Virus record (IMG/VR): IMGVR_UViG_3300006870_000021
Coordinates: 1-52,318 of that record
DNA length: 52,318 nucleotides
Strand: one strand, 5' to 3'
Source: a virus
The position numbers and the translations under genes are program-made. The notes beneath the pieces are model-generated. The model was not told where the DNA came from. It was given only the letters and a program-made list of their open reading frames with translations, and ran no database searches. This document shows positions 844 to 40,430 of the stretch, piece after piece (the stretch's first letter is position 1; each line of letters begins with the position of its first letter).

Positions 844-1025
844 ATACCAACCTCTTCAATTTTAATATCTTTTCCTTGCCATGACCAAATAGTATGATCG
901 TACCAAGTATGAGATCCTGTACTTTGCGATTCGGCAAAAATATACAAACTTGTTTCAAGTTGAACTATCTTCTTGCCATCTTTCCAGTGACTTATGTAAC
1001 TTAAACATTCTTTAAATTTAGACAT
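828..1025 (-). CDS. Small hypothetical protein (65 aa)
   Basis: This 65-residue protein contains many aromatic residues (HTWYDHTIWSWQ). No family is recognised and no signal peptide or membrane segment is visible. The ATG at 1025 is preceded by a GGA-containing purine run. Its 5' end overlaps the 3' end of the 1001-1798 gene by 25 nt, and its 3' end overlaps the convergent fibre gene by 16 nt. It is the last gene of the leftward run that begins near 6625. Confidence 0.5.
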   Translation of the reverse strand: MSKFKECLSYISHWKDGKKIVQLETSLYIFAESQSTGSHTWYDHTIWSWQGKDIKIEEVGIHPNE

Positions 1026-5376: not shown

Positions 5377-5405
5377 TTAATTTCCTCTACGGAAATACTT
5401 ATGTT

Positions 5406-5966
5406 TTATAAATTAGTTTCTATGTTAAATCGAACACTTAATAAGTATCTAGGGTGTTTTGAAAAATTTGTAACACTATGTGGTGTAGTTACTTTTACAA
5501 CTTTTGGTTTATCTATAGAACACTCGTCTATAACTTTAGGATTACCTATCCATATTGGTCTTAAATGTTGCGAATCATCTGCTGGTAAATTTGGTTTATT
5601 TGTAGGAGTTGCGTATCCAATGTCATAATTACTATCATACCAATACATTGTTGTATCTTGGCAATTAAATATAGGAATATTTAATGCCCAATGTTGATCC
5701 GGTGTAGGAGGATTATGTCCATCTATATGAACTCGTAAACTTTCATTTCCGCTTAACCCACCTAGCACACATATTTTAATTTTTGGATCTTCTGAGAATA
5801 TATCGATGATATCATCTATAATTTTTTCTCGTAACCAGATGATATCATTGTCTGTTTTATCAAATACTGTTATTGATTGCCCGATTAGATCTTTATTAAT
5901 ATACTTGCTAAAACGTTCCTGTATATCTATAAAATTTTTTAAATCTATATCATAGTGTAAGGGCAT
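5406..5966 (-). CDS. Aspartyl/asparaginyl beta-hydroxylase-like 2OG-Fe(II) protein
   Basis: The 186-residue product has H80-x-D82 (RVHIDG) followed by PPTPDQHWALNIPIFN, then H163 (TPHSVTNF) and R173 (HPRYLLSVRF). This layout is that of the Asp/Asn beta-hydroxylase branch of the superfamily and is distinct from the five-copy array next to it. Its ATG shares one base with the TAA of the nitroreductase gene, so the two are coupled. It may be a target-specific hydroxylase, but the substrate cannot be read. Confidence 0.65.
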   Translation of the reverse strand: MPLHYDIDLKNFIDIQERFSKYINKDLIGQSITVFDKTDNDIIWLREKIIDDIIDIFSEDPKIKICVLGGLSGNESLRVHIDGHNPPTPDQHWALNIPIFNCQDTTMYWYDSNYDIGYATPTNKPNLPADDSQHLRPIWIGNPKVIDECSIDKPKVVKVTTPHSVTNFSKHPRYLLSVRFNIETNL

Positions 5967-6625
5967 TAATATTCTACGACTGGAACTTCTTGTCTTTTAT
6001 TTGTAGGATATAAAATTTCATCGTCAACTTGATGTTTTCTGCGGCTTACACCTTCTTGTTTAAACCCTACACCCATTATCAATAAAGGATCATTCTCTAA
6101 ATTTAGTGCTTCTTTAACTTTTACATGATCCATACTTAAACAACAACCAGTTGCATAACCTAACATCTGAGCAGTTAAATTTAAATAACCAGAAACTATA
6201 CCTAAAGCTACATTTTTATCAAAATCTTTCGGTTCGTCAGCAATTCTTTTTTCTTTAAAGTGTGATTCTACTTTATAATAGTCTTCAAAAACTACAACAA
6301 GATTTGCTAATGTTTGACTTTGTGTAGCATCTCCCATTTCGTGATATTTGTCTTCGTCTCGTGGATGCGGATCAACTATTTTAGTACCATCTTCTGCAAT
6401 AGCGTACGGTGCACCGTGTGTTGCTGCGTGTACTTTTTCGATAGTCTCTCTATCTTGTATAAAGTGAACCTTATAGAATGCCACATTTTGTAAACTAGGA
6501 GCTTGTGTTAAGCTTGTTTTAAGTATGTCTAAATCTTCTTGAGGTATTACTTTATCTAAATCCCAATTACGCTGACAGTGTTGGCTGCGAATTATAGCTT
6601 TGCTTAAATTTTTTCTTATGTCCAT
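5966..6625 (-). CDS. Nitroreductase-family FMN oxidoreductase
   Basis: The product has 219 residues. The N-terminal block AIIRSQHCQRNWDLDKVIP with APSLQN is the FMN-phosphate-binding region of the nitroreductase fold. The later segment ALGIVSGYLNLTAQMLGYATGCC and the LIMGVGFKQ strand match the usual C-terminal half. Members reduce nitro groups, quinones or flavins with NAD(P)H, and some fragment FMN. An AGGAG site precedes the ATG. It is the first gene of the leftward run ending at 828 and is divergent from the radical-SAM operon at 6668. It may supply reductant to the redox enzymes around it, which is inference. Confidence 0.75.
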   Translation of the reverse strand: MDIRKNLSKAIIRSQHCQRNWDLDKVIPQEDLDILKTSLTQAPSLQNVAFYKVHFIQDRETIEKVHAATHGAPYAIAEDGTKIVDPHPRDEDKYHEMGDATQSQTLANLVVVFEDYYKVESHFKEKRIADEPKDFDKNVALGIVSGYLNLTAQMLGYATGCCLSMDHVKVKEALNLENDPLLIMGVGFKQEGVSRRKHQVDDEILYPTNKRQEVPVVEY

Positions 6626-6667: not shown

Positions 6668-7750
6668 ATGTTCCATTTTAACGAGCTAACACAAATCCAT
6701 CTTGAAATTACAAATCGCTGTCAAGCAAGCTGTCCTATGTGTAATAGAAATATTAGAGGCGGTTTAGATAATCCTTTAATAAAGAATAATGATTGGACAG
6801 TATCTGATTTTAAGAAAATTTTATCTCACAGTGTTTTAGATAAAATCACTGGTTTTTATTTCTGTGGAAATTTTGGCGATCCTATTATTAATAATGATTT
6901 AATAGATATGTGCAAATATGCAGTAGAGTATAAACCTGAAATAAACATCGCTATACATACAAATGGTAGCGCACGTACTACACAGTGGTGGGAATTGTTA
7001 GCCCAAACATTACCCAAAGATAGTAGAGTAGTTTTTGCACTGGATGGTTTAGCCGATACACATTCATTATATAGGATCGGTACTAGTTTTGAAAAAATTA
7101 TTTCAAATGCTCGGGCATTTATTAATGCAGGAGGAACTGCTGAATGGTGTTTTATTAAATTTAAACATAACGAGCACCAAGTAGGAGAAGCAGAAAAATT
7201 AGCAAAAGAAATGAAATTTAAACATTTTTCAGTAAAGAATAGTAGTCGATTTATCGGTGAACCAAAATATGCTGTTTTAGATTCAAATGCAACTACTACA
7301 CATTATATAGAACCTCCTAGTGATAACAAGATGTCTTTTATAAGTAACGATGTTATTAAAAACTATAAAGAAATAGTTAATAATAGTGAGATAAATTGTT
7401 ATGTTTTACACACGAAGGAAATATATATTGATGCTAATAGGATAGTATATCCTTGTTGTTATCTTGCAAGTGTGCCGTTTACAAATATACCAAAAGATGA
7501 GACAACTCAGGCTCGAATAGATATAAGAACACAGCACGAAGAATATATTACAGATCTTGGCGGATATGATAATATTAATTCTTTACAAAAATCTATCGAA
7601 GATATTGTAAATGCAAAGTTATGGCATACAGTTTGGAACAAATACTGGTTTAAACAAAAAATGATTACCTGTGCAAGAAGTTGTGGCACAATTAAAGAAA
7701 TATCAAAACCTTATGAGCAGATTGTTACTACGGAAACTATAAATGGATAA
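6668..7750 (+). CDS. Radical SAM enzyme (SPASM-like C-terminal Cys region)
   Basis: The product has 360 residues. C18-x3-C22-x2-C25 (CQASCPMC) is the 4Fe-4S/SAM-binding motif. GNFGDP near residue 75 and TNGS near 107 match the following SAM-contact strands. Cysteines near 250-275 (INCYVLH, YPCCYL) and near 338-345 (TCARSCG) resemble an auxiliary-cluster region. It overlaps the next gene by 8 nt and starts a three-gene radical-SAM operon. Enzymes of this architecture modify peptides or small molecules, and no precursor is seen beside it. Confidence 0.8.
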   Translation: MFHFNELTQIHLEITNRCQASCPMCNRNIRGGLDNPLIKNNDWTVSDFKKILSHSVLDKITGFYFCGNFGDPIINNDLIDMCKYAVEYKPEINIAIHTNGSARTTQWWELLAQTLPKDSRVVFALDGLADTHSLYRIGTSFEKIISNARAFINAGGTAEWCFIKFKHNEHQVGEAEKLAKEMKFKHFSVKNSSRFIGEPKYAVLDSNATTTHYIEPPSDNKMSFISNDVIKNYKEIVNNSEINCYVLHTKEIYIDANRIVYPCCYLASVPFTNIPKDETTQARIDIRTQHEEYITDLGGYDNINSLQKSIEDIVNAKLWHTVWNKYWFKQKMITCARSCGTIKEISKPYEQIVTTETING

Positions 7751-9125
7751 AATTAAATCTTACCAAACTGAAATTAAAAAAGTAAGTGGTAGTGATACGT
7801 TTTGTGTTCTTCCTTGGATACACTTAGCAACTCGACCAAATGGTGATATGCGATTATGTTGTACAGCAAATGCTAGTGGAGCAGGCGAAGACCATGAAGT
7901 TGGTTTAATAAAAGGAGACGACGGTCGTCCTGCAAACTTTGCTAAGACTACTCCTATGGAAGCGTGGAACAATCAATATATGCGTAATGTAAGATTAGAT
8001 ATGCTTAACGGAAATAAACCAGCAAGTTGTATGGGATGTTATAAAGAAGAAGAACAAGGAATTGTTAGTAAACGTATATGGGAAACTGGAACGTGGTATA
8101 AAGACGAAGGTATAGATATACCAGATCTTATTAAACAAACTGAAGAAGACGGCACTGTTCCTGAACAATTGCAATATTTAGATTTAAGGCTTGGTCATAC
8201 TTGTAACATTAAATGTGTAATGTGCAGTCCGCACGATAGTTCTAAATGGGTACAAGATTGGAAGCTGCTGTATCCCCAGTTAGAAAATCCTGAAGTAAAA
8301 CAACAAATGGGCTGGGAGAAAAAAGAATTTAATAATAAGTGGCATGAAAAGGACACATTTTGGGGAGAGTTATATAAACAAATTCCTAATTTAAAACAAG
8401 TATATTTTGCAGGCGGCGAGCCTTTAATGATAAAAGAACATAAAATGTTTATTAAAGAAATTATCCGCCAAGGCTATCAATCTAGTATATTGCTAAGATA
8501 TAACTCTAATGGATTATTAGTAGATAATGAACTTATTGATCTGTGGAGTAAATTTAGAAAAGTAAAGTTTGCAGTAAGTGTTGATGCAATAGAACAGCGA
8601 GATGATTATATAAGATATCCAACTAAATTTGACGAAGTAAGTCGTACACTACATTTATTAGATTCAACACCTGATAATATACATGTTAGTATGGCAACCG
8701 CAGTACAAATTTTTAACATTAAACATCTACCAGATTTTATAAAATGGAAAGTTAATCAAAATTTTAAAAAAATGAATGTTGGTTTAGTTGGTGGAGTTCT
8801 TATGGGCGGCGGTTTAGTAAATATGCACTTGGTACATATACCTACATTTTTAAATATTACAATACTTCCAAAAGAAGATAAAGAAGATGTACACCGTAGA
8901 TTTGCAGATTTTAAAGAGTGGCTTTGGAATAACTATACTCAAGATGACGATTATTGGAATGTTAATCCTTATGGTTGGAGACGCTGGGAAGCATTACTAG
9001 AACATATGGATTCGGTTGATAATAGTTATAGGCTTAGCGGTTTTAAAGAATATGTAACTAAATTAGATAAAATAAGAAATCTAAACGCCGCTTCTGTATT
9101 TCCTGAACTGGCACACTTGTTATGA
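7743..9125 (+). CDS. Radical SAM enzyme with N-terminal auxiliary-cluster domain
   Basis: The 460-residue product has an inverted layout. A Cys-rich auxiliary-like module comes first (C21, C39, C40, C96, C99; FCVLPWIHL, RLCCTA, CMGCYKEEE). The radical-SAM core follows, with C154-x3-C158-x2-C161 (CNIKCVMC) and AGGEPL near 225. The same layout occurs at 10909-12213, so the two are paralogues. It overlaps the first operon gene by 8 nt and the third by 4 nt (ATGA). Confidence 0.8.
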   Translation: MDKIKSYQTEIKKVSGSDTFCVLPWIHLATRPNGDMRLCCTANASGAGEDHEVGLIKGDDGRPANFAKTTPMEAWNNQYMRNVRLDMLNGNKPASCMGCYKEEEQGIVSKRIWETGTWYKDEGIDIPDLIKQTEEDGTVPEQLQYLDLRLGHTCNIKCVMCSPHDSSKWVQDWKLLYPQLENPEVKQQMGWEKKEFNNKWHEKDTFWGELYKQIPNLKQVYFAGGEPLMIKEHKMFIKEIIRQGYQSSILLRYNSNGLLVDNELIDLWSKFRKVKFAVSVDAIEQRDDYIRYPTKFDEVSRTLHLLDSTPDNIHVSMATAVQIFNIKHLPDFIKWKVNQNFKKMNVGLVGGVLMGGGLVNMHLVHIPTFLNITILPKEDKEDVHRRFADFKEWLWNNYTQDDDYWNVNPYGWRRWEALLEHMDSVDNSYRLSGFKEYVTKLDKIRNLNAASVFPELAHLL

Positions 9126-10036
9126 AGTTAACAAAAATTATAACAACACGACCTTACAACGAATTAGATATCACATTCTGGCCAACTGATATTTGTAACT
9201 TTAATTGTTCATATTGCTTTCCGGGTAGTAAGGATGGCATATATAGATTTGAAAAAAATTTAGATATTGTATTAAACAAATTTAAAAAGTTATTTGCAGA
9301 TTATTCTTCGATAGGTAAAGATAAATTTAATATTACTATAGCAGGCGGAGGTGAACCTACACTTTGGCCTATACTTGATCAATTTTGTTCTCAAATTACA
9401 TTATTAGAAAATGTAAAAATTCAACTAGTAACAAATGGTAGTAGAACTTTAAAGTGGTGGAGTAATAATGCAAAATATTTAGATAAGGTACATTTAAGTT
9501 GTCATTCTGAAGACGTTGATATAGATCATTTTATTAATGTTGCAGACGTACTTACACAAAAAGGCACTGAAGTTACGGCAATGATGCTTATGGATGCAAA
9601 ACGTTGGGATCTCTGTGTTAGTTATATTGATAAGATGCAACATAGTAAAGAACAATGGAAAATTTTAGCCAAAGAAGTAGTTGCTGCGCCTGGACATGAT
9701 ATAGATAGTTATACTAATGAACAACTAGAATACATAAAACGTTCTACTAAAAGATTTGTATTTTTTGAAAAGGATATAAGCGAATACAGGACAGTAGAAA
9801 GTTTAGGATTTTATGATGACAAATCTTTTCCTGCATATAATAATACCTATATAGCAAACAAACAAAATTATTTTAAAGGTTGGAACTGTAATATGCCTGT
9901 TGAACGGATAAGTGTCGACGCAGGACTTAATATAAAAGGAAGTTGTGGAGTAAACTTTGATAAACTAGACTCTATTATTTGCCCGCTAGACTGCTGTGAT
10001 TGTCAACCTGATACACATATTACTAAGTTTATTTAA
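9122..10036 (+). CDS. Radical SAM enzyme
   Basis: The product has 304 residues. C25-x3-C29-x2-C32 (CNFNCSYC) is the cluster motif, and AGGGEPTLW near 77-86 is the glycine-rich SAM strand. The C-terminus holds many Cys (WNCNM, GSCGVN, ICPLDCCDC), likely an auxiliary cluster site. It is close in organisation to the opposed gene at 10029-10916, and the two converge with an 8-nt overlap. It is the third gene of the operon and is joined to the previous one by ATGA. Confidence 0.78.
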   Translation: MKLTKIITTRPYNELDITFWPTDICNFNCSYCFPGSKDGIYRFEKNLDIVLNKFKKLFADYSSIGKDKFNITIAGGGEPTLWPILDQFCSQITLLENVKIQLVTNGSRTLKWWSNNAKYLDKVHLSCHSEDVDIDHFINVADVLTQKGTEVTAMMLMDAKRWDLCVSYIDKMQHSKEQWKILAKEVVAAPGHDIDSYTNEQLEYIKRSTKRFVFFEKDISEYRTVESLGFYDDKSFPAYNNTYIANKQNYFKGWNCNMPVERISVDAGLNIKGSCGVNFDKLDSIICPLDCCDCQPDTHITKFI

Positions 10037-10916
10037 ATTTTGTTAAAGGAATATCAGCAGCACAAGTACAAAATTTACGTGTGCAGTCTATATACTCGGT
10101 AGGGCGTGTAAAACTACCGTTGTAAATGTTACCTAAACTACCTCCTACTCGACAAGTTGCTCTATGTACTTCACCGTCCCAATTTATCATTAAACTTTCA
10201 ATGCCAGCAGCACACTTCCATCCCTCAAATTGATTACGTTTTGTTTTAATTATGTCATTAGCATGTGCTAGTTCTTCTTCGTCAACAACACAATTTGGTT
10301 TTGCAGTTGCATTTACACTTAACAGCCATTCTAAGTCCTGTGCATCATATCGCATATCGTCAAACCAGTCATGCTTCTCTGTCCATCTAATTCTACGTAA
10401 TGCAAACGGAATACCATACCCTACTAACCGTGCTGTTGCTTCTTTTACTCTTTTCATATGGTCATGATGAGCCATTACATTTACATGAAAGGGTATCTTC
10501 TGTGTATTCTGCTGATTAAACCAAAGTATGTTGCCTAATGCTCTTGTCCAACTTTCGTTGTCAAAGTGTAAACTAAAAACATAATGATCAACTGGTGCTT
10601 CTGCATACCATACAGGTTTTCGTAATCCGTTAGTTGTTATATTGACCCAACTTAGTTTTGATTTTGTATGTTTAACTAATTCTTCGAAGTGAGGATGTAC
10701 TGTTGGTTCTCCGCCTGTAAAACTAATTCTCACAGGTTTATCAAATTCTTCTAATATGTCAACTGTATTTTTTAATGTATCTATATTAGTGTGTGGAGAT
10801 GTCATGTCGTGTATCTCAGGAGGACAATACGCACAGTCTAAATTACAACGCTTTCCGAGGTTCCATTCAATTTTAACAGAGTCTTGATGCGGCCACCTAC
10901 TAGTTACTTTATACAT
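10029..10916 (-). CDS. Radical SAM enzyme
   Basis: The product has 295 residues from the ATG at 10916. An in-frame TTG three codons upstream is less likely. C24-x3-C28-x2-C31 (CNLDCAYC) binds the catalytic cluster, and SFTGGEPTVH follows near 65. The tail has GWKCAAGIES, HRATCRVGGS and DCTRKFCTCAA, a probable auxiliary-cluster region. Its start overlaps the end of 10909-12213 by 8 nt, giving a two-gene radical-SAM unit behind the QueC-like gene. The layout resembles the convergent gene at 9122-10036. Confidence 0.78.
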   Translation of the reverse strand: MYKVTSRWPHQDSVKIEWNLGKRCNLDCAYCPPEIHDMTSPHTNIDTLKNTVDILEEFDKPVRISFTGGEPTVHPHFEELVKHTKSKLSWVNITTNGLRKPVWYAEAPVDHYVFSLHFDNESWTRALGNILWFNQQNTQKIPFHVNVMAHHDHMKRVKEATARLVGYGIPFALRRIRWTEKHDWFDDMRYDAQDLEWLLSVNATAKPNCVVDEEELAHANDIIKTKRNQFEGWKCAAGIESLMINWDGEVHRATCRVGGSLGNIYNGSFTRPTEYIDCTRKFCTCAADIPLTKFK

Positions 10917-12213
10917 AAGGAGCAAACTCAGGGTTAGAATCTAAAAAACTTTGATTGCGAGTCTTGTCTAAAGCACGATTAAAATTTATACAATCTTGCC
11001 AATACTCACTTAGATCTCTTGCTTTTAAAAAATTAATGTTGTCGGCCACTTGCCTCTCAGTAATAGGTATAAGCACAGGATGATCTCGTACAATCGGATA
11101 ATCACGGAAGGTCTCTTGTATGGTTTGTAAGTTTTCAATTACTTTCTCCTTTAATGCATTAGGCAATGTTTGTGCGCTTAATGGGCGTGGATAGTTTACT
11201 CTATGCGAATAAAACACAATGCCCATTTCGTTTAAAAAGTAATCTATTACTTTGTCAATTTGCATAATATTATTTGCTTGTACAGTAAACGCACCTACTA
11301 CTCTATTTACATTAGGAAAGCTTTTAAACACTTTTACATTTTCTTCAACTTCTGTAAAATCACCATTACCTCTAATATATTCATATGTGTCGTGTATACC
11401 GTCTATGCTTACATTTACAGCAATGCTACGAAACTTAGGCCAATAGTCGTGTATAGTACGTCCGCCTTTTATGCCTAGCGTAGTGCCGTTAGTAGCATAT
11501 TTTAGTTCAATGTTGTCTCCATACTCTGCAAGTCTGTCTAGTATCTTATAGTGGTACGGATCCATTAACGGCTCACCACCTGCAAATTCTACACGTCTAA
11601 AGTGTGGTAGTAATTTCTCAAATGATGACCACCAGTTGTCTGAGTTATCAAACGGGCCAATATATTTGCCCGGAGTGTCAGTAAGTTTGTCGATAATTGG
11701 AATTAAGATATTGTTTTCTTTTTCGTAAAAAGGCTTTACTTCATTCCAGTCTTTCCAACTAGTTGAATCAAGTGGGTTACACATTCGACATTTTAAATTA
11801 CATAGATTGTTTAGTTTAATTTCCATAGTAGGAAGTTCAAACGGCATTGTAAAATCGTCTTGTAGTGCATCTAACGCATCTGGATATAAGTTTATACGTG
11901 CTTCGGGTATTACTCCCGCTATATGACGCTGTCGTAAGCTCTCTACACCCTGATCTTCTAAATCAAAACACGGCTTGCAAACATCAGGTCGTTCGTTGTT
12001 TAACACTTGCTGGCGAACTTCTTGCATGGATTTATTATTCCATGCATCTTCTAAAGATTCGTTTTGGATATAACCGATCGGCTGGCTACGGCAGCACACT
12101 TTTATAGCACCGTCTTCTCGTGTTGCTAAACCTGTAAAAGGGTGCATACAAAATGTACAACTATTTGATTTGATCAATAGCCCATTCTCTCTCTTTACAC
12201 CAAAAACATTCAT
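10909..12213 (-). CDS. Radical SAM enzyme with N-terminal auxiliary-cluster domain (paralogue of 7743-9125)
   Basis: The 434-residue product has an N-terminal Cys module (CTFCMHPF, VCCRSQ, CKPCFDLEDQG), then C138-x3-C142-x2-C145 (CNLKCRMC) and FAGGEPLMD near 215. The match to 7743-9125 extends through DAWNN(K/Q) and the LATR..G segment. The start is uncertain. The ATG at 12213 has no ribosome site and would overlap the QueC-like gene by 53 nt. A TTG at 12177 after GAGAGAATGGGC is an alternative. Confidence 0.78.
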   Translation of the reverse strand: MNVFGVKRENGLLIKSNSCTFCMHPFTGLATREDGAIKVCCRSQPIGYIQNESLEDAWNNKSMQEVRQQVLNNERPDVCKPCFDLEDQGVESLRQRHIAGVIPEARINLYPDALDALQDDFTMPFELPTMEIKLNNLCNLKCRMCNPLDSTSWKDWNEVKPFYEKENNILIPIIDKLTDTPGKYIGPFDNSDNWWSSFEKLLPHFRRVEFAGGEPLMDPYHYKILDRLAEYGDNIELKYATNGTTLGIKGGRTIHDYWPKFRSIAVNVSIDGIHDTYEYIRGNGDFTEVEENVKVFKSFPNVNRVVGAFTVQANNIMQIDKVIDYFLNEMGIVFYSHRVNYPRPLSAQTLPNALKEKVIENLQTIQETFRDYPIVRDHPVLIPITERQVADNINFLKARDLSEYWQDCINFNRALDKTRNQSFLDSNPEFAPYV

Positions 12214-12832
12214 TACATATTGGAACAGACTGGCCTGGTGTATATGTTAAATAATCTATTTCGTCAAACTCACCTTCGCAACTTCTAGTTAAGTTTAGTA
12301 AGTCCTTAATATTATGTTCGTAGTATTGTTTTATAATCCAGTCTTTACTAGTATACACGAAAGGATGTAAAATGTCAACCCCCATATGCTTCATATGTAA
12401 TGGTAAAACTCCTTCGTTACGTTCAGGAAGTGCGCCGGGTATATCTATATCTGGATTTTTGTTAACAGCAGCATACCATGCATCTAAATTATAAGTATGT
12501 GCCACCCATTCGTTATGAGCTCGTAATATTATTCTATTTCCAGGTTTAAGTGCTCCGTATTCGTCGGTAATAAATGTTGTATTAGGTTCTTCCATTTCTG
12601 GAGGAATAAAATTTTCTATATGTTCTATAGGATTTTTAAACCTTTGTCGGAACCATTCCACAACTTCGATAGCAATATACCTTTGCCATGGTCGAGTTTT
12701 CCAACAACGTATTTGTGTAGTAAAGTATATTTCTGCATTAGTTTGTGATAATATAAGATATGATAATAACGCACTATCGGCACCGCCACTTAAACTTATT
12801 CCTATACGTTTCCAGTTTTTGCTAACATCCAT
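12161..12832 (-). CDS. QueC-like PP-loop ATPase
   Basis: The product has 223 residues. SLSGGADSALL (residues 13-23) is the PP-loop of N-type ATP pyrophosphatases. Four cysteines, C185, C206, C209 and C212 (CNECFWCKERE), match the zinc site spacing of QueC, the 7-cyano-7-deazaguanine (preQ0) synthase. HPFVYTSKDWIIKQYY is also QueC-like. It could supply the preQ0 step missing from the folE/queD/queE/DpdA cluster 20-28 kb away. Its neighbours are radical-SAM enzymes, so a different amidation or thiolation in this island is equally possible. No Shine-Dalgarno is seen before the ATG. Confidence 0.6.
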   Translation of the reverse strand: MDVSKNWKRIGISLSGGADSALLSYLILSQTNAEIYFTTQIRCWKTRPWQRYIAIEVVEWFRQRFKNPIEHIENFIPPEMEEPNTTFITDEYGALKPGNRIILRAHNEWVAHTYNLDAWYAAVNKNPDIDIPGALPERNEGVLPLHMKHMGVDILHPFVYTSKDWIIKQYYEHNIKDLLNLTRSCEGEFDEIDYLTYTPGQSVPICNECFWCKEREWAIDQIK

Positions 12833-13542: not shown

Positions 13543-14096
13543 AACTTTTTATCGATAACTTAGCAGATAGAATAGATCTAGATGCGCTTATAGACACTTG
13601 CGTTAAAGCCGGTGGACATGAGCAATACGGGCCAAAGCCCATCGAAGAAGGTAAACATTATCATGAGGAGTATATACATCAAGTAAATTTAATGGAAAAG
13701 GCAGGATACTTAGGTAACGGACAATGTAGGTTTAAACATTATTATCCTGATCAACAGTTTCCTAAAAGCATTTCTTTACAAGTTGCAGAAGCAGCAGGTG
13801 TTGAACATTTAGGAAGTTTTATAAGTAGTGTTGATCCTGGATATTGTGCACCTTGGCACACAGATATCTTTAATAATTATTATAGAGAAATGGAAGACGA
13901 AGGTGTTGATATGCGTAGATTTGTAATGTTTATCTCAAAACCGCAACCTGCTGTAGGCTTTGTAATTGAAGATGAGTGCTTTTATATGGAAAAACAGGGT
14001 AATTTATATGAATTTCCGCATATAAAAAATTGGCATGCTGGATTTAATGCAGGACTAGAAACAAAATTTATCTTCACGCTTACTGGTAGGAAGTGA
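13539..14096 (+). CDS. 2OG-Fe(II) oxygenase-like protein
   Basis: The start is the ATG at 13539, which overlaps the preceding TGA and follows GGAG at 6 nt. An upstream in-frame ATG at 13518 is rejected. The 185-residue product has H107-x-D109 (PWHTDI), H166 (NWHAGFNAG) and a Lys at 176 (ETKFIFTLTG) where most relatives have Arg. The Lys variant is known for some 2OG enzymes. It converges on the B12-type radical-SAM gene, with a 42-nt overlap of coding ends and no visible terminator. Confidence 0.6.
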   Translation: MKLFIDNLADRIDLDALIDTCVKAGGHEQYGPKPIEEGKHYHEEYIHQVNLMEKAGYLGNGQCRFKHYYPDQQFPKSISLQVAEAAGVEHLGSFISSVDPGYCAPWHTDIFNNYYREMEDEGVDMRRFVMFISKPQPAVGFVIEDECFYMEKQGNLYEFPHIKNWHAGFNAGLETKFIFTLTGRK

Positions 14097-15674
14097 TACT
14101 AATTTTTTGTGCAAGAATTTAATTAGCGGCTTGAAATATTTTTCTTCAATCTGTTCCTTCATAAGTTGTTGTTCGTCTACACCAGACATGTATTCGTAAT
14201 ATTCGCGTCCAGTTTTAAAACTCATTAGTTTATTAAAATCAAAATGATCATTGTCTATACAACTTATATAAAAGAAATTTCGTTTAAAATCTATATGAGA
14301 GTCTAATCGCTTTTGCCACTTAACTGCAAGGTCAGTTGCCTTCTCAAATGTATCAATATCAGTTCCGTCATTTTTAATCCAGCGCCACGGTACATCTTCG
14401 TATGGAAACTCATAGCCGTATTTTTCTGCTTCTAGTTCAAATGCAGCGTTAAATCTATGTTTTGTAAACTCGGTATGTTTTATTATACGTAGGGGTGTTG
14501 TGTTAATGTGTCCTACCGGTCTATCAGGTCTATCAAAATACTTACAACTATTCTCAAATGCTTCTACAGTATCTTTTGGCAACCCGCAGATCATCCCAGT
14601 CATTATCCAAGTATCATGACCCCATACCCTAGCACACTCTTCTAACGTATCAGTAATGCGTTTGGGATCCATCCCCTTACCAATAACTTTACCTGCTTCT
14701 CTATTAAGTGTTTCTATGCCAAAGTAGACTTCTCTTATGCCTATATCTTTTGCAAGTTGAATATGATCTCTATTATTAACTATAATGTCTAATCTCATGT
14801 AGCACCAGAATGCAGGCTTAAACGGTAAACGATCAACAACACGCTTCACCATTTGTAATTTTTCAGTACTATCATTAAACGTGTCATCTACTATTGTGTA
14901 CTTCCAAGTACCAAAGCGTTTCCAATTATCCATTAGTTCATTGTATAAACATTCTTCAAATTTTAAATAATCACTTACACGTTTTTGTCCTATTAGCGGA
15001 AAACTGCAAAATTTACAATTAAATCTGCAACCTCGTCCTACTTCTAAAAGCAATGTTTCACTTGGAAGTATAAATGCTTCTGGTTCGTAATCTATCCTGC
15101 TACTCCTAAAATCCCAACTAGGCGATTGTCCTTTCTTGTCATAGTCAATAATTTTAGGATATGAACCAACATTGCCTTTTTTAAGATCTTTCATATAATC
15201 AACTATCATCGTTTCGGCATGTCCGATAAAAACATTATCTATACCAGGAATGTTAATATACATAAACGCCTTAGCTCCGCCTAATATAATTTTACACTTA
15301 GGAGATAAACTTTTTATCTTATTAAAGTATAAGTCGACGTTTGGTCCTGCAAACTCCATACTTAAACTGTCTAATTCATTTTCACTATTTGGATTAAATC
15401 GCATAGATGGCTTACTTGGTTCTCGATGGCTTGATGATCCGTCTGGTAATATAAACGGAAACCATGTACTACTAAATCCTACAGCTAATGTATCTTCATT
15501 CATTGCAAGATCGAGTATTTCACAAAACCTGTCGTAATTTATATAATTTGAAAAGTCAATTACTAGAACAGAATAACCATGCTCACGTAATTCTGTAGCA
15601 ATTCTATGCGAACCACTAGCCCTAGAATAAGTTTCTAGGTCAGGCATATCTCCAAATAATATTATATCATACAT
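14055..15674 (-). CDS. B12-binding-type radical SAM protein
   Basis: The product has 539 residues. Residues 1-180 form a Rossmann-like region as in cobalamin-binding radical-SAM proteins (IILFGDMPDLETYSRASGSHRIA, CKIILGGAKA, VFIGHAE), but the classical DxHxxG motif is not evident. The core follows, with C216-x3-C220-x2-C223 (GRGCRFNCKFCSFP), TIVDDTFN and YFGIETLNREAGKVIGKGM. This is the Elp3/MiaB-like core common to methyltransferases and methylthiotransferases. The substrate is unknown. It is the end of the leftward run from 19811. Confidence 0.75.
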   Translation of the reverse strand: MYDIILFGDMPDLETYSRASGSHRIATELREHGYSVLVIDFSNYINYDRFCEILDLAMNEDTLAVGFSSTWFPFILPDGSSSHREPSKPSMRFNPNSENELDSLSMEFAGPNVDLYFNKIKSLSPKCKIILGGAKAFMYINIPGIDNVFIGHAETMIVDYMKDLKKGNVGSYPKIIDYDKKGQSPSWDFRSSRIDYEPEAFILPSETLLLEVGRGCRFNCKFCSFPLIGQKRVSDYLKFEECLYNELMDNWKRFGTWKYTIVDDTFNDSTEKLQMVKRVVDRLPFKPAFWCYMRLDIIVNNRDHIQLAKDIGIREVYFGIETLNREAGKVIGKGMDPKRITDTLEECARVWGHDTWIMTGMICGLPKDTVEAFENSCKYFDRPDRPVGHINTTPLRIIKHTEFTKHRFNAAFELEAEKYGYEFPYEDVPWRWIKNDGTDIDTFEKATDLAVKWQKRLDSHIDFKRNFFYISCIDNDHFDFNKLMSFKTGREYYEYMSGVDEQQLMKEQIEEKYFKPLIKFLHKKLVSLPTSKREDKFCF

Positions 15675-19849: not shown

Positions 19850-20470
19850 ATGATGGGATACCGATACGACTTATCAGACACACACTGTAAAATTTATTAT
19901 GAAAGCACTCCTGAATTTGAAGAAGTGCGCGATCTCTGCCTTCAAGAAGACAACTGGCTTAGAAATAATTATATAAAAGAAAATTTAAAATTAGAAGAAC
20001 ACACAGGTTACGGTGTACTATATCAGACTAGCACCGGTAAACCTATGGTAATGGGCGGAGTTTTTAACGACGGTAGATATCCTAGTAATGTAGCTAAACA
20101 AATAAATAGACTTTATACATTCCCTGACTTTAGGATGACAGCAACAGATATGACTGATGGGTTTAGATGTACTTGTAAACTTATTAACGAGCTTGAAGCG
20201 GTAAATAATTACGAAGTATATTTAATAACTATGCAAAATAGAAAGGCTCGTCCGAATAAAGGATATTGGAAGGTTTGGCGCAAGCATATGGATATAGCAA
20301 GTAATGGTGCATGGAATGAGGGTGCAGGATATATACAAACTTGTCCATATCCAGTACAAAAATGTTGGCAAAATTTTGTGTGGCAAGAAAAAGTAAACGG
20401 TGCTATGCTAGAATGGTCACCGAATATAATAGATGATACAGTTTGGTTAGGATTAGAAGAAGGTAAATGA
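19850..20470 (+). CDS. Hypothetical protein, possible GNAT-like acyltransferase fold
   Basis: The start is ATG 19850 or the adjacent 19853. The in-frame ATG at 19799 lies inside the divergent gene and is rejected. The product has about 206 residues. The mid-region GYGVLYQTSTGKPMVMGGVF, followed by a YPSNVAKQINRLYTFPDF segment, has a GNAT-like strand pattern, but the acetyl-CoA loop is not clear. It is coupled to a desaturase and a sulfotransferase by overlapping starts and stops, so a role in modifying a lipid or glycan is inferred only from neighbours. Confidence 0.5.
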   Translation: MMGYRYDLSDTHCKIYYESTPEFEEVRDLCLQEDNWLRNNYIKENLKLEEHTGYGVLYQTSTGKPMVMGGVFNDGRYPSNVAKQINRLYTFPDFRMTATDMTDGFRCTCKLINELEAVNNYEVYLITMQNRKARPNKGYWKVWRKHMDIASNGAWNEGAGYIQTCPYPVQKCWQNFVWQEKVNGAMLEWSPNIIDDTVWLGLEEGK

Positions 20471-21237
20471 ATTTAAATACTAAAATACGATTATTACAAG
20501 CATTCAATCATATTGCAACAGTGCCTGCTGTAGCGTATGCAATATACACACAGCAATATAATTTGTTCTGGGTTGCATTATCTGTATGGTTTATTATAGG
20601 ACCCGTAAGCAGCGTTATAACGCTTCATAGACTGCTTACACATAGAAGTTTTGAAACATATGCATGGCTTGAAAAAATTCTTACATATATTAGTGTAATT
20701 AGTACAGTAGGTCCTACTATAAGTTGGGTTGCATTGCATCGTCAACACCATTCTAAATCAGATAGAGAAGGTGATCCACATTCGCCGTACGTTGACGGTA
20801 AGTTTAGTATAATAGAATCTATTAAAGTATGGCTAGGTTATGACTGGAAGGTTCCAAACATACCTGTGCGTTATGTTAAGGATTTATTTCGTAGTAAAAC
20901 GCATAAATTTATTTTTAATAATTATTTTAAAATAATATTTGCTTATTGTGCAATATTATTAGCAGTTGATCCTATGCTATTTTTGTTTGCATATGTAGTA
21001 CCTGCTAGTATGACAGTACACCTAATTGGATTTGTCAATGTGCTAGGGCATAAACATGGATATAGGAATTATGAAACAAAAGACGGTAGCACAAATAGTT
21101 GGATTGCTAATATTATAAGTTTAGGAGAAGGATGGCATAATAATCATCATGCAAAGCCTAACAAATACTATACCGGTGAACGTTGGTATGAATGGGATCT
21201 AATGGGATTGTTAATTAAAGTCATAAAAACAAACTAA
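20467..21237 (+). CDS. Fatty-acid desaturase
   Basis: The product has 256 residues. Three His boxes are intact: HRLLTH (54-59), HRQHH (91-95) and HNNHH (224-228), the di-iron ligands of membrane acyl-CoA/acyl-lipid desaturases. Hydrophobic segments lie near 12-32, 35-55, 70-90, 155-190. GLGEGWHNNHH-type context (LGEGWHNNHH) is typical of delta-9 enzymes. The ATG overlaps the preceding TGA (ATGA), and the stop overlaps the next start (TAATG). It would introduce a double bond into host membrane lipids during infection, which is inference from the family. Confidence 0.85.
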   Translation: MNLNTKIRLLQAFNHIATVPAVAYAIYTQQYNLFWVALSVWFIIGPVSSVITLHRLLTHRSFETYAWLEKILTYISVISTVGPTISWVALHRQHHSKSDREGDPHSPYVDGKFSIIESIKVWLGYDWKVPNIPVRYVKDLFRSKTHKFIFNNYFKIIFAYCAILLAVDPMLFLFAYVVPASMTVHLIGFVNVLGHKHGYRNYETKDGSTNSWIANIISLGEGWHNNHHAKPNKYYTGERWYEWDLMGLLIKVIKTN

Positions 21238-31584: not shown

Positions 31585-32478
31585 TTAGGTTCCCCAGGCG
31601 TTGCCGAAGAGCGAGATGTGAAGTCTTGGGGTAAAACGCCAGCCCCTTTCCATACATGCTTCTGCGACATCTTTGACGTTGAGGTTGTATTCTTCCGACC
31701 TACCACCGAGCGGCATAAGATACACAGGGCATTCCACACCTTTGTTACGATACGCTTCAACAGCCCGAGTAACTTCATCAAAGTCGTCGTTACTAGCGAC
31801 AACAAACTTGAGATAAATGTCACTACCGTCAACACTGCTATACTCGCGAGCAACATCAGGCAATATAGCAGTTTCCCAAGGTTCTCCCGAAACACTAAGT
31901 TTTGGGGAACAACTCCAAGTAACTTCAAATCTGTCTTGATCCATGAGATAGTTGAAGAAATCGTCGTGTAAAGGTTGTGTAGTGTTTGTTTCAAATGTAA
32001 CATTTTTTAAATCCTGCATACGGGGATGTTCGAACAGTTCGATATACAATCGCTGCCACGCTAATAACGGTTCACCACCTGTCATAATAAGGTGTACATC
32101 CTGACCATTATCCATTGTCCACTTGCCTTCTGGTGTAAGTGACAATAGGTGTTCAACTACTTCGTCAATAGTTGCTTCTTTGTTAAAGTGTTTGAATTCT
32201 GGATAGATACTTGCATATGTATCACAGCCTGTATGAATAATTGGCAAGTCTTCAAACTTTTCAGTTGTTTCGTGTACACCTGCGTCAATTAATGCTTTTA
32301 CTTCTGCATTATAACGGTTACCTTCTGCATGTTGCTCCCAACGATTTTTTGTTTCGTTAGTACCAAAGTTCATACAACGAAAGTTACAACCAAATGTACG
32401 CAAGAATACACTTGGTACTCCTACATACTTGCCTTCACCTTGCACACTATAAAATGCTTCTGAATAGCGTAGTTTCAT
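31585..32478 (-). CDS. queE: QueE-like 7-carboxy-7-deazaguanine synthase
   Basis: The 297-residue radical-SAM protein begins RYSEAFYSVQGEGKYVGVPSVFLRTFGCNFRC, diagnostic of QueE. Ligand Cys are C31 and C35. The usual third Cys after CxxxC is Phe, and C85 (HTGCDTY) is the likely third ligand, as I recall for phage-type QueE. GGEPLLAW and FETNTTQPL match SAM and substrate strands, and LHISLFGNAWGT the C-terminus. It converts 6-carboxy-tetrahydropterin to 7-carboxy-7-deazaguanine. It is coupled by ATGA to the small membrane gene upstream. Confidence 0.85.
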   Translation of the reverse strand: MKLRYSEAFYSVQGEGKYVGVPSVFLRTFGCNFRCMNFGTNETKNRWEQHAEGNRYNAEVKALIDAGVHETTEKFEDLPIIHTGCDTYASIYPEFKHFNKEATIDEVVEHLLSLTPEGKWTMDNGQDVHLIMTGGEPLLAWQRLYIELFEHPRMQDLKNVTFETNTTQPLHDDFFNYLMDQDRFEVTWSCSPKLSVSGEPWETAILPDVAREYSSVDGSDIYLKFVVASNDDFDEVTRAVEAYRNKGVECPVYLMPLGGRSEEYNLNVKDVAEACMERGWRFTPRLHISLFGNAWGT

Positions 32479-32682: not shown

Positions 32683-33108
32683 CTAATACTGTATTATAAC
32701 ACTGATGACAATAATAGTCAACAATATTGTTGGCACTTCGTTTAATATACGCATTTGCCTACCTGTGTAACTAAAGTCACCGTCTGCCATTTTTCTTCGT
32801 GTTGAACTTAACCAACCATGAAACCCGAACATAAGAAACACTGCTCCTGCTTTGACCCAAGGCCAAGTAAGACTCCAGTCAACTACACCGAAACTTACTA
32901 GTGTCAGCCCTGACACTAGTGTAGCAACCATAGCAGGAAGCATAATAAACTTTTGAAGCTTATATTCCATAGTTTCTAAAATGCGATATACTTCATCAGA
33001 ATAACCTTTATACTCTAAATGATATACCATAATCCTTGGTAAGTAGAATAGTGCCGCCATCCAACTAATGAGCGACACTATGTGAATTACAAGAACCCAA
33101 TCATACAT
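32683..33108 (-). CDS. hemJ: HemJ-like protoporphyrinogen IX oxidase (membrane)
   Basis: The product has 141 residues. The opening WVLVIHIVSLISWMAALFYLPR, then VYHLEY, is the hallmark of HemJ/UPF0093 with His and Arg that bind heme in the family. Four hydrophobic segments lie near 4-22, 52-75, 80-100 and 122-140. In bacteria HemJ oxidises protoporphyrinogen IX to protoporphyrin IX. It is in the folE-queE operon, and heme oxygenase is 1.3 kb upstream. Finding it in a phage is unusual to my knowledge. Confidence 0.78.
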   Translation of the reverse strand: MYDWVLVIHIVSLISWMAALFYLPRIMVYHLEYKGYSDEVYRILETMEYKLQKFIMLPAMVATLVSGLTLVSFGVVDWSLTWPWVKAGAVFLMFGFHGWLSSTRRKMADGDFSYTGRQMRILNEVPTILLTIIVISVIIQY

Positions 33109-33287
33109 TAACGTTCAACCAACGGTTTAGTATTGTTTGAGTCGTGATAATCGCCTGATTTGTAATAATCACGACTTGCTTCTTCTTTAACCATAATGCC
33201 ATTACGCATACGATATGTAATAATTTCTCTACGAATTACTCCGCTTGTGTCAGCATCGAATGCTGCTTTAAATGGTCCTTCACTCAT
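33108..33287 (-). CDS. Small hypothetical protein (59 aa)
   Basis: Read directly: MSEGPFKAAFDADTSGV, then REIITYRMRNG and SGDYHDS. It resembles a short conserved protein seen in marine T4-like phages, function unknown. The ATG overlaps the folE TGA, and AACAGGAG lies upstream. Its TAA overlaps the hemJ ATG (TAATG), so folE, this gene and hemJ form one coupled unit. Confidence 0.6.
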   Translation of the reverse strand: MSEGPFKAAFDADTSGVIRREIITYRMRNGIMVKEEASRDYYKSGDYHDSNNTKPLVER

Positions 33288-33319
33288 CTTGATGCAAACT
33301 CCTGTTGTAGTTTAATATT
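33284..33319. repeat. 36-bp direct repeat, copy 2 (folE 3' end)
   Basis: Original location of the repeat: the end of folE with the internal AACAGGAG that serves as ribosome site for the gene starting at 33287. Confidence 0.8.
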
Positions 33320-33970
33320 GTCAAAAAACTCTTTCTTTGTACCTGCGTCATCTTTAAATGCACCACGCAACACAGTTGTTTGTGTAAGACTACTGGTTGC
33401 CATAATACCTCGATTTTCACAACAACCGTGTGTTGCTTGGATATATACACCTAAGTGTTCTGCACCTGTTGCTTTTGCAATCTCACGTGCAATGTCATTT
33501 GCAAGTTCTTCTTGTAGCGTCCCACGTCTAGCACACCATTGTGCAATACGTGTATACTTGCTCAAACCAATCAGTTTGTCTGCGGCAATAATACCAATGT
33601 ATGCAACACCTGCTACTGGCTGGTGATGATGCGAACACATACTTTTAAGTTCACTTCGCACAACAAGCATACCTTCGTAACGATCGTCTGAATCGTTTGG
33701 AAATGCTGTTGCTGTTGGTGCAGGATCATAACGTCCCGCCATAATCTCATTAAAGTACATCTTAGCAAGACGTCTTGCTGTACCTTGTGAATTAGGATCG
33801 TTATGACGATCAATTAATAGTGCATCTAACACACCTTCAAATGCTACTGTAGCATTTTCAATAAGTTCTTCTTTATCACCTTTTTGTAGGACTTTAGAAA
33901 TGTTGTCGCCAGCCCAGTAACGAATGCCTAGATCTTCTAGACGGGCTTTTAATTGTTCCGCTTTGCTCAT
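33284..33970 (-). CDS. folE: GTP cyclohydrolase I
   Basis: The product has 228 residues. Zinc ligands are in MCSHHHQP (C112, H115) and HGCCENRG (C183), and GLSKYTRIAQWCARRGTLQEEL is the conserved core. It opens GTP to dihydroneopterin triphosphate, the first step to preQ0 and also to folate. It is the first gene of the folE-59aa-hemJ-56aa-queE unit, under a consensus early promoter that contains a palindrome over its -10 element. Confidence 0.88.
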   Translation of the reverse strand: MSKAEQLKARLEDLGIRYWAGDNISKVLQKGDKEELIENATVAFEGVLDALLIDRHNDPNSQGTARRLAKMYFNEIMAGRYDPAPTATAFPNDSDDRYEGMLVVRSELKSMCSHHHQPVAGVAYIGIIAADKLIGLSKYTRIAQWCARRGTLQEELANDIAREIAKATGAEHLGVYIQATHGCCENRGIMATSSLTQTTVLRGAFKDDAGTKKEFFDNIKLQQEFASR

Positions 33971-34055: not shown

Positions 34056-34274
34056 TTAAAAATATTTTTCTAACATTTCTAGTTGATCATTATACTCTGC
34101 TACAATTTTAAGTTCTTGTTCAATTGCTTCGAGTACATCAGGGTGTTCTCCGACACCTGCTGAACTTCGTAGATAAACTTCTACGTTCATTGCATGTTTA
34201 GCAATATGGCCTTTAGCATGATCCTTGATTGCTTGGATCATATTCTCTCTAGTGTACTGTCCTACGCTTGCCAT
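34056..34274 (-). CDS. Conserved small phage protein (72 aa)
   Basis: The start is set at ATG 34274 (or adjacent 34277). A more distal in-frame codon at 34304 would lie within the -10 region of its promoter, so it is rejected. IQAIKDHAKGHIAKHAMNVEVYL and AGVGEHPDVLEAIEQEL match a small conserved marine T4-like phage protein of unknown function. AAGGA precedes the ATG. Confidence 0.6.
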   Translation of the reverse strand: MASVGQYTRENMIQAIKDHAKGHIAKHAMNVEVYLRSSAGVGEHPDVLEAIEQELKIVAEYNDQLEMLEKYF

Positions 34275-34305
34275 CATAAATCCTTTTGTGTTTATTGATA
34301 ACAAT

Positions 34306-34334
34306 ATAATAACATAAATTTAAACTAAAGTCAA
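34306..34334 (-). promoter_or_regulatory. Early sigma70-type promoter for the 72-aa gene
   Basis: TTGACT (34329-34334), TATTAT (34306-34311), 17-bp spacer. The -35 includes the TGA stop (34331-34333) of the 36-residue mini-protein gene. Confidence 0.7.
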
Positions 34335-34441
34335 CCTTTTTTCTTTGCTTCCCATTCTGCTTTTTTCTTTTGGTACTCTGATTCGCTTAGCCTGTGCCAG
34401 CCAATACATTTACCTGTTGGTGATCTTCCACATCCGCACAT
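34331..34441 (-). CDS. 36-residue Cys/His mini-protein, CDGSH-like
   Basis: Read directly: MCGCGRSPTGKCIGWH, then a charged helix SESEYQKKKAEWEAKKKG. C2-x-C4, C12 and H16 follow the 3Cys-1His order of CDGSH iron-sulfur (2Fe-2S) motifs. Spacing C4 to C12 is 8 instead of 9, and CDGSH is altered to CIGWH. The TAA of heme oxygenase abuts its ATG, so the two are coupled. A 2Fe-2S or zinc site is likely. The function is not known. Confidence 0.55.
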   Translation of the reverse strand: MCGCGRSPTGKCIGWHRLSESEYQKKKAEWEAKKKG

Positions 34442-34978
34442 TTATTCTTCCAGTTCTTTAAAAAGTTGCATTGCAAACTCAAATGCTCTATTTGCTTCGT
34501 CTGCCATATCGTCATGTAATTTAGCTCTAGTATCTTGTATTAGTTTATACGAATCTTCAAAATCGTACATTTTACCTGATCCAGGAGCACGTTTCTTAAT
34601 CATTTGCCCACCGTGCAATTCACCAAAGTGTCTTACATAAATGTGTGCAATTAGTCCTTCGCCTTCTAAGTTGTTAACATAGTCGACATACTCTTGAACA
34701 ACTGGACACAATACAGATTCGTCTCTTTCGATGCCGAACTCTTCTTCCAGTTCTTCCATATCTGCGAGCATACCAGGTGCTCTGCAAATTCCTTCAATGC
34801 CTTCTAGCATACCAGCATCTCTTGCTGCTACCTCTAGTGCTTCGTACTGTACATATTGATTGTAAATAAATCTATGATATTCGGGTGCAGGCATACCTTT
34901 AAGTAGTTTACGTGCAACAACCATACGTTCTGCGTTTTGGTGATTCTCCCAAGTGAGTTCTTTTAGTTTTGCACTCAT
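34442..34978 (-). CDS. ho1: Heme oxygenase
   Basis: The product has 178 residues, shorter than bacterial and cyanobacterial enzymes. The proximal His is H13 in LTWENHQNAER. The distal helix is AHIYVRHFGELHGGQMIKK. Splits heme to biliverdin, CO and iron. Cyanophages carry ho1 for bilin synthesis, but no bilin reductase (pcyA/pebS) is in this window. It is coupled to a membrane gene upstream and the mini-protein downstream. Confidence 0.85.
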   Translation of the reverse strand: MSAKLKELTWENHQNAERMVVARKLLKGMPAPEYHRFIYNQYVQYEALEVAARDAGMLEGIEGICRAPGMLADMEELEEEFGIERDESVLCPVVQEYVDYVNNLEGEGLIAHIYVRHFGELHGGQMIKKRAPGSGKMYDFEDSYKLIQDTRAKLHDDMADEANRAFEFAMQLFKELEE

Positions 34979-38704: not shown

Positions 38705-38899
38705 TTAGTCCTTCAACCGTCGTTCGATTCTGTATATTTCATCCTTGAGCCACAATTTTTTAGTTTTTAGGCGGTATAGCTCGTCTCCGCTTGTATAATT
38801 ATTATATAGTATTTTTATTTTATTGTCAAGTTCTTTATGCTCTTTATATAATTTATCTAATTGCATCTTCATAACTTTATTAAATGGCTTTTCACTCAA
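38705..38899 (-). CDS. YdcH/DUF465-like small helical protein (64 aa)
   Basis: LDKLYKEHKELDNKIKIL and LKTKKLWLKDEIYRIERRL match the two-helix YdcH/DUF465 pattern. It starts within 8 nt of the DpdA-like stop. Function of the family is not established. Confidence 0.6.
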   Translation of the reverse strand: MSEKPFNKVMKMQLDKLYKEHKELDNKIKILYNNYTSGDELYRLKTKKLWLKDEIYRIERRLKD

Positions 38900-40430
38900 A
38901 TAACTCTCCGAAGTACGTTTGGTTATTTACAGTCTTTTTACCAATTGCACCTCTAGTTCCGGGAATTTCTGTCCAAAACATAGAATGTTCGTCTATAAGT
39001 TTAATAGATTCTTCTTTATTTGTACAAGAGAAAATTCTATCTACTACATCTCTAAAAAAGATTCTATCATGTTTTTCTTGCACAAGCATGTTAGGCACAA
39101 CACCATTATCGTATTGTCTATTTGCTTCTTGTACTGCATTAATATGACTCCATACATTATGACCCATTTGTATAGCGTAACTAAAACTATCCCAACTAGT
39201 GCTGTCTTTTTTCCTAACAATTGGTGATCCATTTTCGTCAAGCACCGGTTGATCATTCTTATCCAGTTCAACTTCGCCTGCTAGTACCTTAGGTGTACCT
39301 ATCTTATTTCTATCGCCTTTGTTGTATATACATACTTCATTAACCAGTAAACCATCAGTTAACGGGCTATTTTCGAACTTAGGAAATATTCCATCTTGTA
39401 CTGTAGCATTTTGAAATGTTCTAGTATCAGTTGCATATTTAAGTTCGTCTACACTCGGCAACATTCGATACGTCCATTTGCCTCTATCAGGTGTTTCGTT
39501 TGATGTATATACTTGTCCGTTAGCAGTTGCTAAGAAAGGAGAAGCACAATCAAATGTAATCATAAAACTAGGATTATAATACTTACGAACTGCTCTTTGT
39601 ATGTCAGTTAGTAAACAAGCCCATTCTAATTTACTAGTACCAAGGAAGTGCATAACATCATGATAACCTTCTTGTAGCAAATTATCAAAATGAAGTGTAA
39701 CTAAACGTTTTAAAACAAGATCAACATCGCACATGTTCTGACCACCCATTGACCAGCCATTAAAATGATTGTCTGGGTATTTGATTGGATCGCAGTAATC
39801 TTTCATCTGTTCATACCAGTCGTTGGCATCTTTATGTGTTTCACCTTGTAATACATTTAAGAATTTACAAGATCCGGTTCTATGTTTCATCCAGTAGTCG
39901 TTGTTGATACGTGTAGCGTTCACAGCATCTTGATATGTACTAATACCTGTTGCTTTTGCTCCTTTAGGAGAACGTGCAACCCAGGCTGGAATATCAAGTA
40001 TCATTCCATAGTCCATGTAAGCATCCATCCAACGAAGAACGCCATCACGTTTTGCTTGTGCTTTAGGACAGTTGGGATCTTTCCAGTCGCCTTCCCAAAC
40101 ACCTTTACCAATCTGGAAGCCACCTGAGTCACCTAGTAACCAAGTGTTTTCTCTATCTCTATTACGTACCATGTCTTCTTTAGGAACAACTTTAGTTGTA
40201 TCCAAGTCAGCATGTCCTGCTGAATATAAGCTCCATTTATATTGGAATTGACCTTCTTTAGCATTAAGATAATTTAAACTTTCTATACCGCTATTCCAAA
40301 AAGAAGGGATACGATCTTTAGGAACGTATTCTTCAAAACGTTGTTTACCTACATAAGTAGCATAGAAACCACTTAGTGCAGGAAGAAAGTGTGCATAATC
40401 TTCTTGTGCTTCAGTAAGATCTGTTCTCAT
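38892..40430 (-). CDS. dpdA: DpdA-like DNA transglycosylase (TGT-family)
   Basis: The product has 512 residues. LLGDSGGFQIGKG (DSGGFQ at 101-106) is the TGT/archaeosine-transglycosylase signature. MITFDCASPFL with D294 is the candidate nucleophile. GWSMGGQ (near 226) and HFLGTS (near 261) are further TGT-like strands. In DpdA families the enzyme swaps guanine in DNA for a 7-deazaguanine such as preQ0. Together with folE, queD and queE this implies modified phage DNA. The start of the gene overlaps the clamp stop. Confidence 0.8.
   Translation of the reverse strand: MRTDLTEAQEDYAHFLPALSGFYATYVGKQRFEEYVPKDRIPSFWNSGIESLNYLNAKEGQFQYKWSLYSAGHADLDTTKVVPKEDMVRNRDRENTWLLGDSGGFQIGKGVWEGDWKDPNCPKAQAKRDGVLRWMDAYMDYGMILDIPAWVARSPKGAKATGISTYQDAVNATRINNDYWMKHRTGSCKFLNVLQGETHKDANDWYEQMKDYCDPIKYPDNHFNGWSMGGQNMCDVDLVLKRLVTLHFDNLLQEGYHDVMHFLGTSKLEWACLLTDIQRAVRKYYNPSFMITFDCASPFLATANGQVYTSNETPDRGKWTYRMLPSVDELKYATDTRTFQNATVQDGIFPKFENSPLTDGLLVNEVCIYNKGDRNKIGTPKVLAGEVELDKNDQPVLDENGSPIVRKKDSTSWDSFSYAIQMGHNVWSHINAVQEANRQYDNGVVPNMLVQEKHDRIFFRDVVDRIFSCTNKEESIKLIDEHSMFWTEIPGTRGAIGKKTVNNQTYFGELFE

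Follow-up and report, generated by a model that had tools for sequence, protein, structure and literature searches.

The viral record IMGVR_UViG_3300006870_000021, analyzed here over its whole length of 52,318 nucleotides (the window), carries on its minus strand a 36-codon ORF, MCGCGRSPTGKCIGWHRLSESEYQKKKAEWEAKKKG (34331-34441; direct translation and ORF list), that begins where a heme oxygenase gene ends. The mini-gene, the parts of its product, and its neighbors are as follows.

34331..34441, minus strand: mini-protein coding sequence (ATG 34441-34439, stop 34333-34331)
34394..34438, minus strand: core motif C2-G-C4-G-R-S-P-T-G-K-C12-I-G-W-H16 (C-x-C-x7-C-x3-H), proposed metal site
34337..34384, minus strand: C-terminal helix, residues 20-35, after an L-[ST]-E-x-E-Y cap, as predicted by AlphaFold2
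34447..34451, minus strand: GGAAG, Shine-Dalgarno-like, within the 3' end of ho1, 5 nt before the ATG
34442..34978, minus strand: ho1, heme oxygenase, upstream neighbor (PF01126, E=1.8e-19)
34056..34286, minus strand: small ORF, phrog_1811, next downstream gene (PHROGs, E=3.4e-29)
33284..33970, minus strand: folE, GTP cyclohydrolase I (PF01227, E=4.9e-38)

In the window, the ho1 stop codon TAA (34444-34442) abuts the mini-gene ATG without a gap, and the GGAAG is held in the sequence upstream of that ATG, ...GAACTGGAAGAATAAATG. An initial annotation of this DNA had placed the ORF here, with residues C2, C4, C12, and H16 and a start immediately after the ho1 TAA, and both translation on the minus strand and the sequence of the junction bear this out; read on the plus strand, the interval translates to nonsense. 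The phrog_1811 ORF also adjoins the mini-gene in four other viral loci. The commonest phage neighbor of the mini-gene family is folE, with a homolog in 42/120 viral loci; as a functional partner it was considered and rejected, being absent from all 118 cellular loci, and we read its presence as shared phage synteny.

Several other features of the window stand apart from the mini-gene. At 1001-6625, neighboring ORFs share a PGxxxxxHxD...H pattern that would fit 2-oxoglutarate/Fe(II) oxygenases and appear to be a local paralog array, one tested member having no Pfam match, and between such oxygenase-like arrays several radical-SAM-like ORFs lie in a row (6668-12213 and 14055-15674; PHROGs matches for two tested). 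QueE-like, FolE, and QueC-like genes suggest 7-deazaguanine chemistry (31585-32478, 33284-33970, 12161-12832, and 38892-40430), the last interval being a 512-residue ORF that is TGT/DpdA-like by eye and has no Pfam or PHROGs match. A phage fatty acid desaturase is found at 20467-21237 (PF00487, E=2.1e-22).

The mini-protein is a phage member of an unnamed family that is absent from Pfam, NCBIfam, and PHROGs. The window protein itself has no Pfam match even at E=10, none in NCBIfam, and no significant one in PHROGs; its relatives have no DUF1289 or CDGSH match in Pfam and nothing convincing in NCBIfam or PHROGs, and a literature search for the string 'CGCGRSP' found none. The initial annotation had proposed searching for CxC-x7-C-x3-H, and a degenerate DNA scan for CGCGRxxxGxCxGWH yielded at least 119 stretches in viral contigs and at least 119 in genome contigs, the matches being small ORFs with the common continuation xLTEEEYxxKL. 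The initial annotation had named a lack of conservation among related phages as refuting; instead, the family extends beyond phages to cells and archaea. The window protein is small and contains the family pattern CxCGRSP-x3-C-x-G-W-H-x-L; its identity to 96 diverse family members is 44-74%. A looser scan showed the residue between the first two cysteines and the TG pair to be variable (for example, CPCGRSPVGRCIGWH and CQCGRSPTQLCIGWH), with CxCGRS and CxGWH constant. Some longer viral members (L010, L022, L071, L090, and others) form a distinct subfamily; in these, an MQVRVKEN-like stretch lies at the N terminus, and a WNDSCTSGR-like tail at the C terminus contributes an additional Cys.

The mini-gene is a real gene selected at the protein level. 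Among the matches listed, positions that the scan pattern left unfixed are conserved in nearly all of 213 distinct proteins (Ser7 in 212, Pro8 in 213, and Leu18 in 211), and across the family these residues are encoded by 6, 4, and 6 synonymous codons, including all six for Ser and all four for Pro. In a scan that fixed none of the four ligand positions, all 110 family members had C2, C12, and H16, and 109 had C4 (one further match, in an unrelated frame, lies outside the 110); a scan with W15 and H16 unfixed recovered H in 100/100 cases and W in 97/100. Among the nucleotide differences that separate the window from near-identical relatives, synonymous codons account for 4/6 in L454, 6/7 in L455, 2/2 in L462, and 2/2 in L463. 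Two copies in decay agree with the near-invariance of the ligands: in a genome of the SAR86 order, C4 has become Phe and stops replace C12 and W15, and a second copy in the HIMB11 genome (that of locus L174) has C4 changed to Ser together with a premature stop.

By record title, the cellular carriers include Rhodobacteraceae HTCC2083, HIMB11, and IMCC1909, alpha proteobacterium HTCC2255, and beta proteobacterium KB13, as well as SAR86, SAR116, Methylophilales, Burkholderiales, Poseidoniales archaea, and Verrucomicrobia; the carriers listed are mostly aquatic and include roseobacters and OM43-type methylotrophs. The mini-gene is accessory and patchy across aquatic lineages: it occurs in 21/145 genomes from the order of a Poseidoniales carrier, in 16/151 from the order of a SAR86 carrier, in 7/248 from the family of HTCC2083, and in 1/299 from a phylum-wide draw, that one being the seed genome itself. 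Among 50,697 isolate-phage records, a set from which near relatives may be missing, tblastn with the window protein and two consensus-like queries gave only chance matches, as did a search of plasmids with the mini-protein.

The surroundings of the cellular copies follow a recurrent pattern. Divergent genes directly upstream encode 16 HxlR and 15 LysR regulators (31/81, vs 7/766 among other genes of the same loci), and same-strand genes within 1.5 kb downstream fall in 24/98 cases, vs 17/766 among other genes, into five families, namely glutathionyl-hydroquinone-reductase (GHR)-like GST, DoxX, cytochrome b561, pirin, and a glutamate synthase with two CDGSH motifs (Fisher p of 5e-28 for the upstream regulators and 4e-14 for the downstream families, values that overstate the evidence, since several of the positive genomes are near relatives). 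Clustering at 60% identity places the 31 regulators in 14 groups; the association is thus a recurrent one, across loci that are partly non-independent. The fullest cluster, L185, runs from a divergent LysR gene through the mini-gene to DoxX, pirin, GHR-like, and glutamate synthase genes, and L204 has a divergent HxlR gene followed by the mini-gene, a GHR-like gene, and pirin; many cellular copies have other neighbors, which make up more than half of the genes lying upstream in divergent orientation and three quarters of those downstream. Functions in these clusters were assigned from Pfam family membership and from E. coli homologs, and the GHR (YqjG-like) label combines Pfam GST domains with our reading of the sequence. 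In E. coli, yqjF and yhaK are under the control of the LysR regulator YhaJ, which hydroquinone, catechol, and DNT need in order to induce yqjF (PMC5031710); the DUF24/HxlR-type regulators YodB, CatR, and HypR use Cys sensing of quinones, HOCl, and diamide, HxlR itself being more specific to aldehydes (PMC6943732); and pirin, YqjG, and a DoxX protein are induced together in Pseudomonas facing Rhizoctonia (PMC5557065). By analogy with these systems, the cellular neighborhood suggests a quinone- or electrophile-response operon, and we hold a function of this kind for the mini-protein with moderate confidence. None of seven cellular-context families tested is present at any of 120 viral loci, so a role in phages would be a transfer from what is seen in cells.

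For the mini-protein, AlphaFold2 (monomer, 97-sequence alignment) predicts a confident motif loop followed by the helix at residues 20-35, with no strands and a mean pLDDT of 86; a 66-residue relative gives a similar loop and helix at lower confidence. Searches with the AlphaFold2 monomer models, which lack metal, returned no PDB match by Foldseek and VIA, and a PDB profile search with the mini-protein family returned nothing. The near-invariance of the C-x-C...C-x3-H set makes metal binding likely. C2, C4, C12, and H16 would form one metal site, most likely a single Zn(II) held by three S and one N in a knuckle followed by a helix, and the shortness of the loop and the small size of the protein make zinc more likely than a [2Fe-2S] cluster. 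The zinc mini-finger that the initial annotation had offered as an option stays a good candidate in light of the near-invariant ligand set, on sequence grounds.

The principal identity put forward in the initial annotation was a CDGSH-like one, with the ligand order of that motif, a spacing one residue short, and the flanking Asp changed. These details are accurate, and the four residues do supply the 3Cys-1His ligand set of zf-CDGSH (PF09360) in identical order; in a profile alignment with one gap, the four ligands fall into register, as do the Ser that follows CxC and the Gly that precedes H, and some cellular clusters hold, along with cytochrome b561, the glutamate-synthase protein that has two true CDGSH motifs. 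On these grounds the mini-protein could be a minimal CDGSH-like [2Fe-2S] protein, with one Fe on C2/C4 and one on C12/H16, serving as an electron carrier or redox sensor and perhaps as a dimer. We consider this unlikely, and reject CDGSH membership. The zf-CDGSH spacing, C-x-C-x2-[ST]-x3-P-x-C-D-G-[SAT]-H, does not occur in the family, every member of which has x7, and a version with x8 and GWH gave only two chance matches in the viral collection; I, V, C, or K stands in place of the CDGSH Asp, the Pro before the third Cys is absent, and neither the window protein nor its relatives reach the gathering score of the zf-CDGSH profile. Moreover, 36 residues seem too few for the beta-cap, the AlphaFold2 monomer model has no strands, 11/20 carrier genomes have no CDGSH match, and a literature search on CDGSH with phage gave nothing relevant. 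Comparison of profiles by hhalign assigned probabilities of 38-53% to DUF1289, 8-14% to CDGSH, and 1-2% to SEC-C, and because column shuffles with the ligands fixed reach the CDGSH score (6/60), the likeness to CDGSH is one of ligand layout only. SEC-C (PF02810) was likewise tried and rejected, 34/60 ligand-fixed shuffles reaching its score. The DUF1289 score, the strongest of the three, was reached by 0/60 full and 0/60 ligand-fixed shuffles, and overexpression of YdhL, the E. coli DUF1289 protein, was picked up in screens for resistance to H2O2 and HOCl (PMC8228696), so one might see in the mini-protein a shortened, rewired relative of DUF1289 (PF06945) with a shared GCxRS...W..[ML][ST]xxE. 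This too is improbable: neither the window protein nor its relatives exceeded the gathering score of the DUF1289 profile, the N-terminal C-x3-C pair that accompanies C-x2-C in DUF1289 is missing in the family members read, C12 aligns to a non-Cys column, which implies different metal sites, the L-[ST]-x-x-E segment is commonly seen as a helix cap, and 13/14 carrier genomes also encode ordinary DUF1289 proteins. Since the cysteines of DUF1289 have a different arrangement, we deny membership and treat the sequence likeness to DUF1289 as a lead.

The mini-protein might instead serve heme degradation together with HO1, as an electron donor or a handler of biliverdin or iron, and a coupling of this kind had been part of the initial annotation. 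In the window phage the two genes adjoin and are possibly translationally coupled, and 1.2 kb downstream of them lies a UPF0093 gene (PF03653, E=1.4e-46; 32683-33108, minus strand), of a family that we take to be the HemJ protoporphyrinogen oxidases, whose protein has only two matches, at 36% identity, among the 50,697 isolate-phage records. The linkage fails in both directions, however, and the mini-protein is for this reason not a conserved HO1 partner: an ho1 relative adjoins the mini-gene in 1/120 viral loci, the window's own, and in 0/118 cellular loci, whereas of 41 viral ho1 loci 8 have the mini-gene and 33 do not, the 8 being those with an ho1 90-100% identical to that of the window phage and thus of one lineage. 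Even there the junction varies, a 93% relative (L455) having TAGGAGAGAAATATG instead of TAAATG, and neither ho1 nor the UPF0093 gene has relatives in other mini-gene loci. In another ho1 phage (L457), ho1 is followed by a gene for a ferredoxin-dependent bilin reductase (PF05996, L457:3531-4217), as in the phage cassettes of heme oxygenase and bilin reductase already published (PMC11480375). A bilin reductase, judged by similar sequence, was also seen after ho1 in the similar loci L458-L468 and L485; at the corresponding place in the window phage stands the mini-gene. A part in heme degradation thus seems very improbable, and the two genes probably stand side by side by chance in a single phage lineage. 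The small size of the mini-protein, its invariant surface, its wide occurrence in phages, and its accessory status in cells would also suit an anti-host or anti-defense effector, a host-takeover mini-protein that is found in cells as well; since the cellular copies lie in ordinary, partly regulated metabolic surroundings, we think this quite unlikely.

Our preferred reading, to which we give a probability of about one half, is that the mini-gene is a phage copy of a gene for a cellular single-metal mini-protein for quinone or electrophile stress, carried as cargo. The mini-protein would be induced by reactive aromatic or quinone electrophiles and would help to withstand them, either as a redox- or electrophile-responsive metal-thiolate center or as a small docking adaptor whose invariant Arg/Pro/Trp face and helix contact a partner. 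The phage may carry the mini-gene as stand-alone cargo that keeps this protection working during infection, and in the window phage it would merely happen to sit behind ho1. More tentatively, and with the balance of our judgment against it, the family could be a new, horizontally spread class of mini-proteins of ~36-50 residues with a 3Cys-1His working site, acting in the quinone/electrophile response of pelagic bacteria and Poseidoniales and captured by phages for redox homeostasis.

The family is common in aquatic metagenomes and crosses the borders between bacteria, archaea, and viruses almost unchanged, yet it is missing from the protein-family libraries and isolate phages searched, probably owing to its shortness. 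Its gene clusters offer a concrete candidate role in quinone or electrophile stress, and the isolates HTCC2255, HIMB11, HTCC2083, and KB13 carry the mini-gene, opening that role to laboratory study. The analysis also corrects a tempting false link between the mini-gene and phage heme degradation. Were the metal a [2Fe-2S] cluster, the mini-protein would rank with the smallest iron-sulfur proteins found in nature.

Several known systems resemble the mini-protein or its setting in part. The NEET proteins of zf-CDGSH share with it the C-x-C...C-x3-H order, a Ser shortly after CxC, a Gly two residues before His, and an occurrence in redox gene clusters; the mini-protein differs in that x7 rather than x8 separates its second Cys from its third, neither the Asp nor the Pro is conserved, a beta-cap is not predicted, and it often has fewer than 50 residues. 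DUF1289 (E. coli YdhL) likewise comprises small Cys-rich proteins with GCxR[ST]...W..[ML][ST]xxE and a possible link to oxidant resistance, but it combines C-x3-C with C-x2-C, a different metal site from the C-x-C and C-x3-H of the mini-family. SEC-C has a similarly short CxC Zn motif with a small G-rich loop and, unlike the mini-protein, ends in C-[CH] without x3-H. Phage heme oxygenase-PcyX/PcyA cassettes contain a phage-borne heme oxygenase of the same kind as that of the window, which has no bilin reductase beside ho1; the mini-gene lies behind ho1 only in a single lineage. The cellular clusters have a parallel in the E. coli YhaJ regulon (yqjF, yhaK) and YqjG-type clusters, in which, as around the mini-gene, a LysR regulator accompanies DoxX, glutathionyl-hydroquinone-reductase-like, and pirin genes; we know of no comparable mini-protein in the YhaJ/YqjG system, and archaeal mini-gene loci have HxlR in place of LysR.
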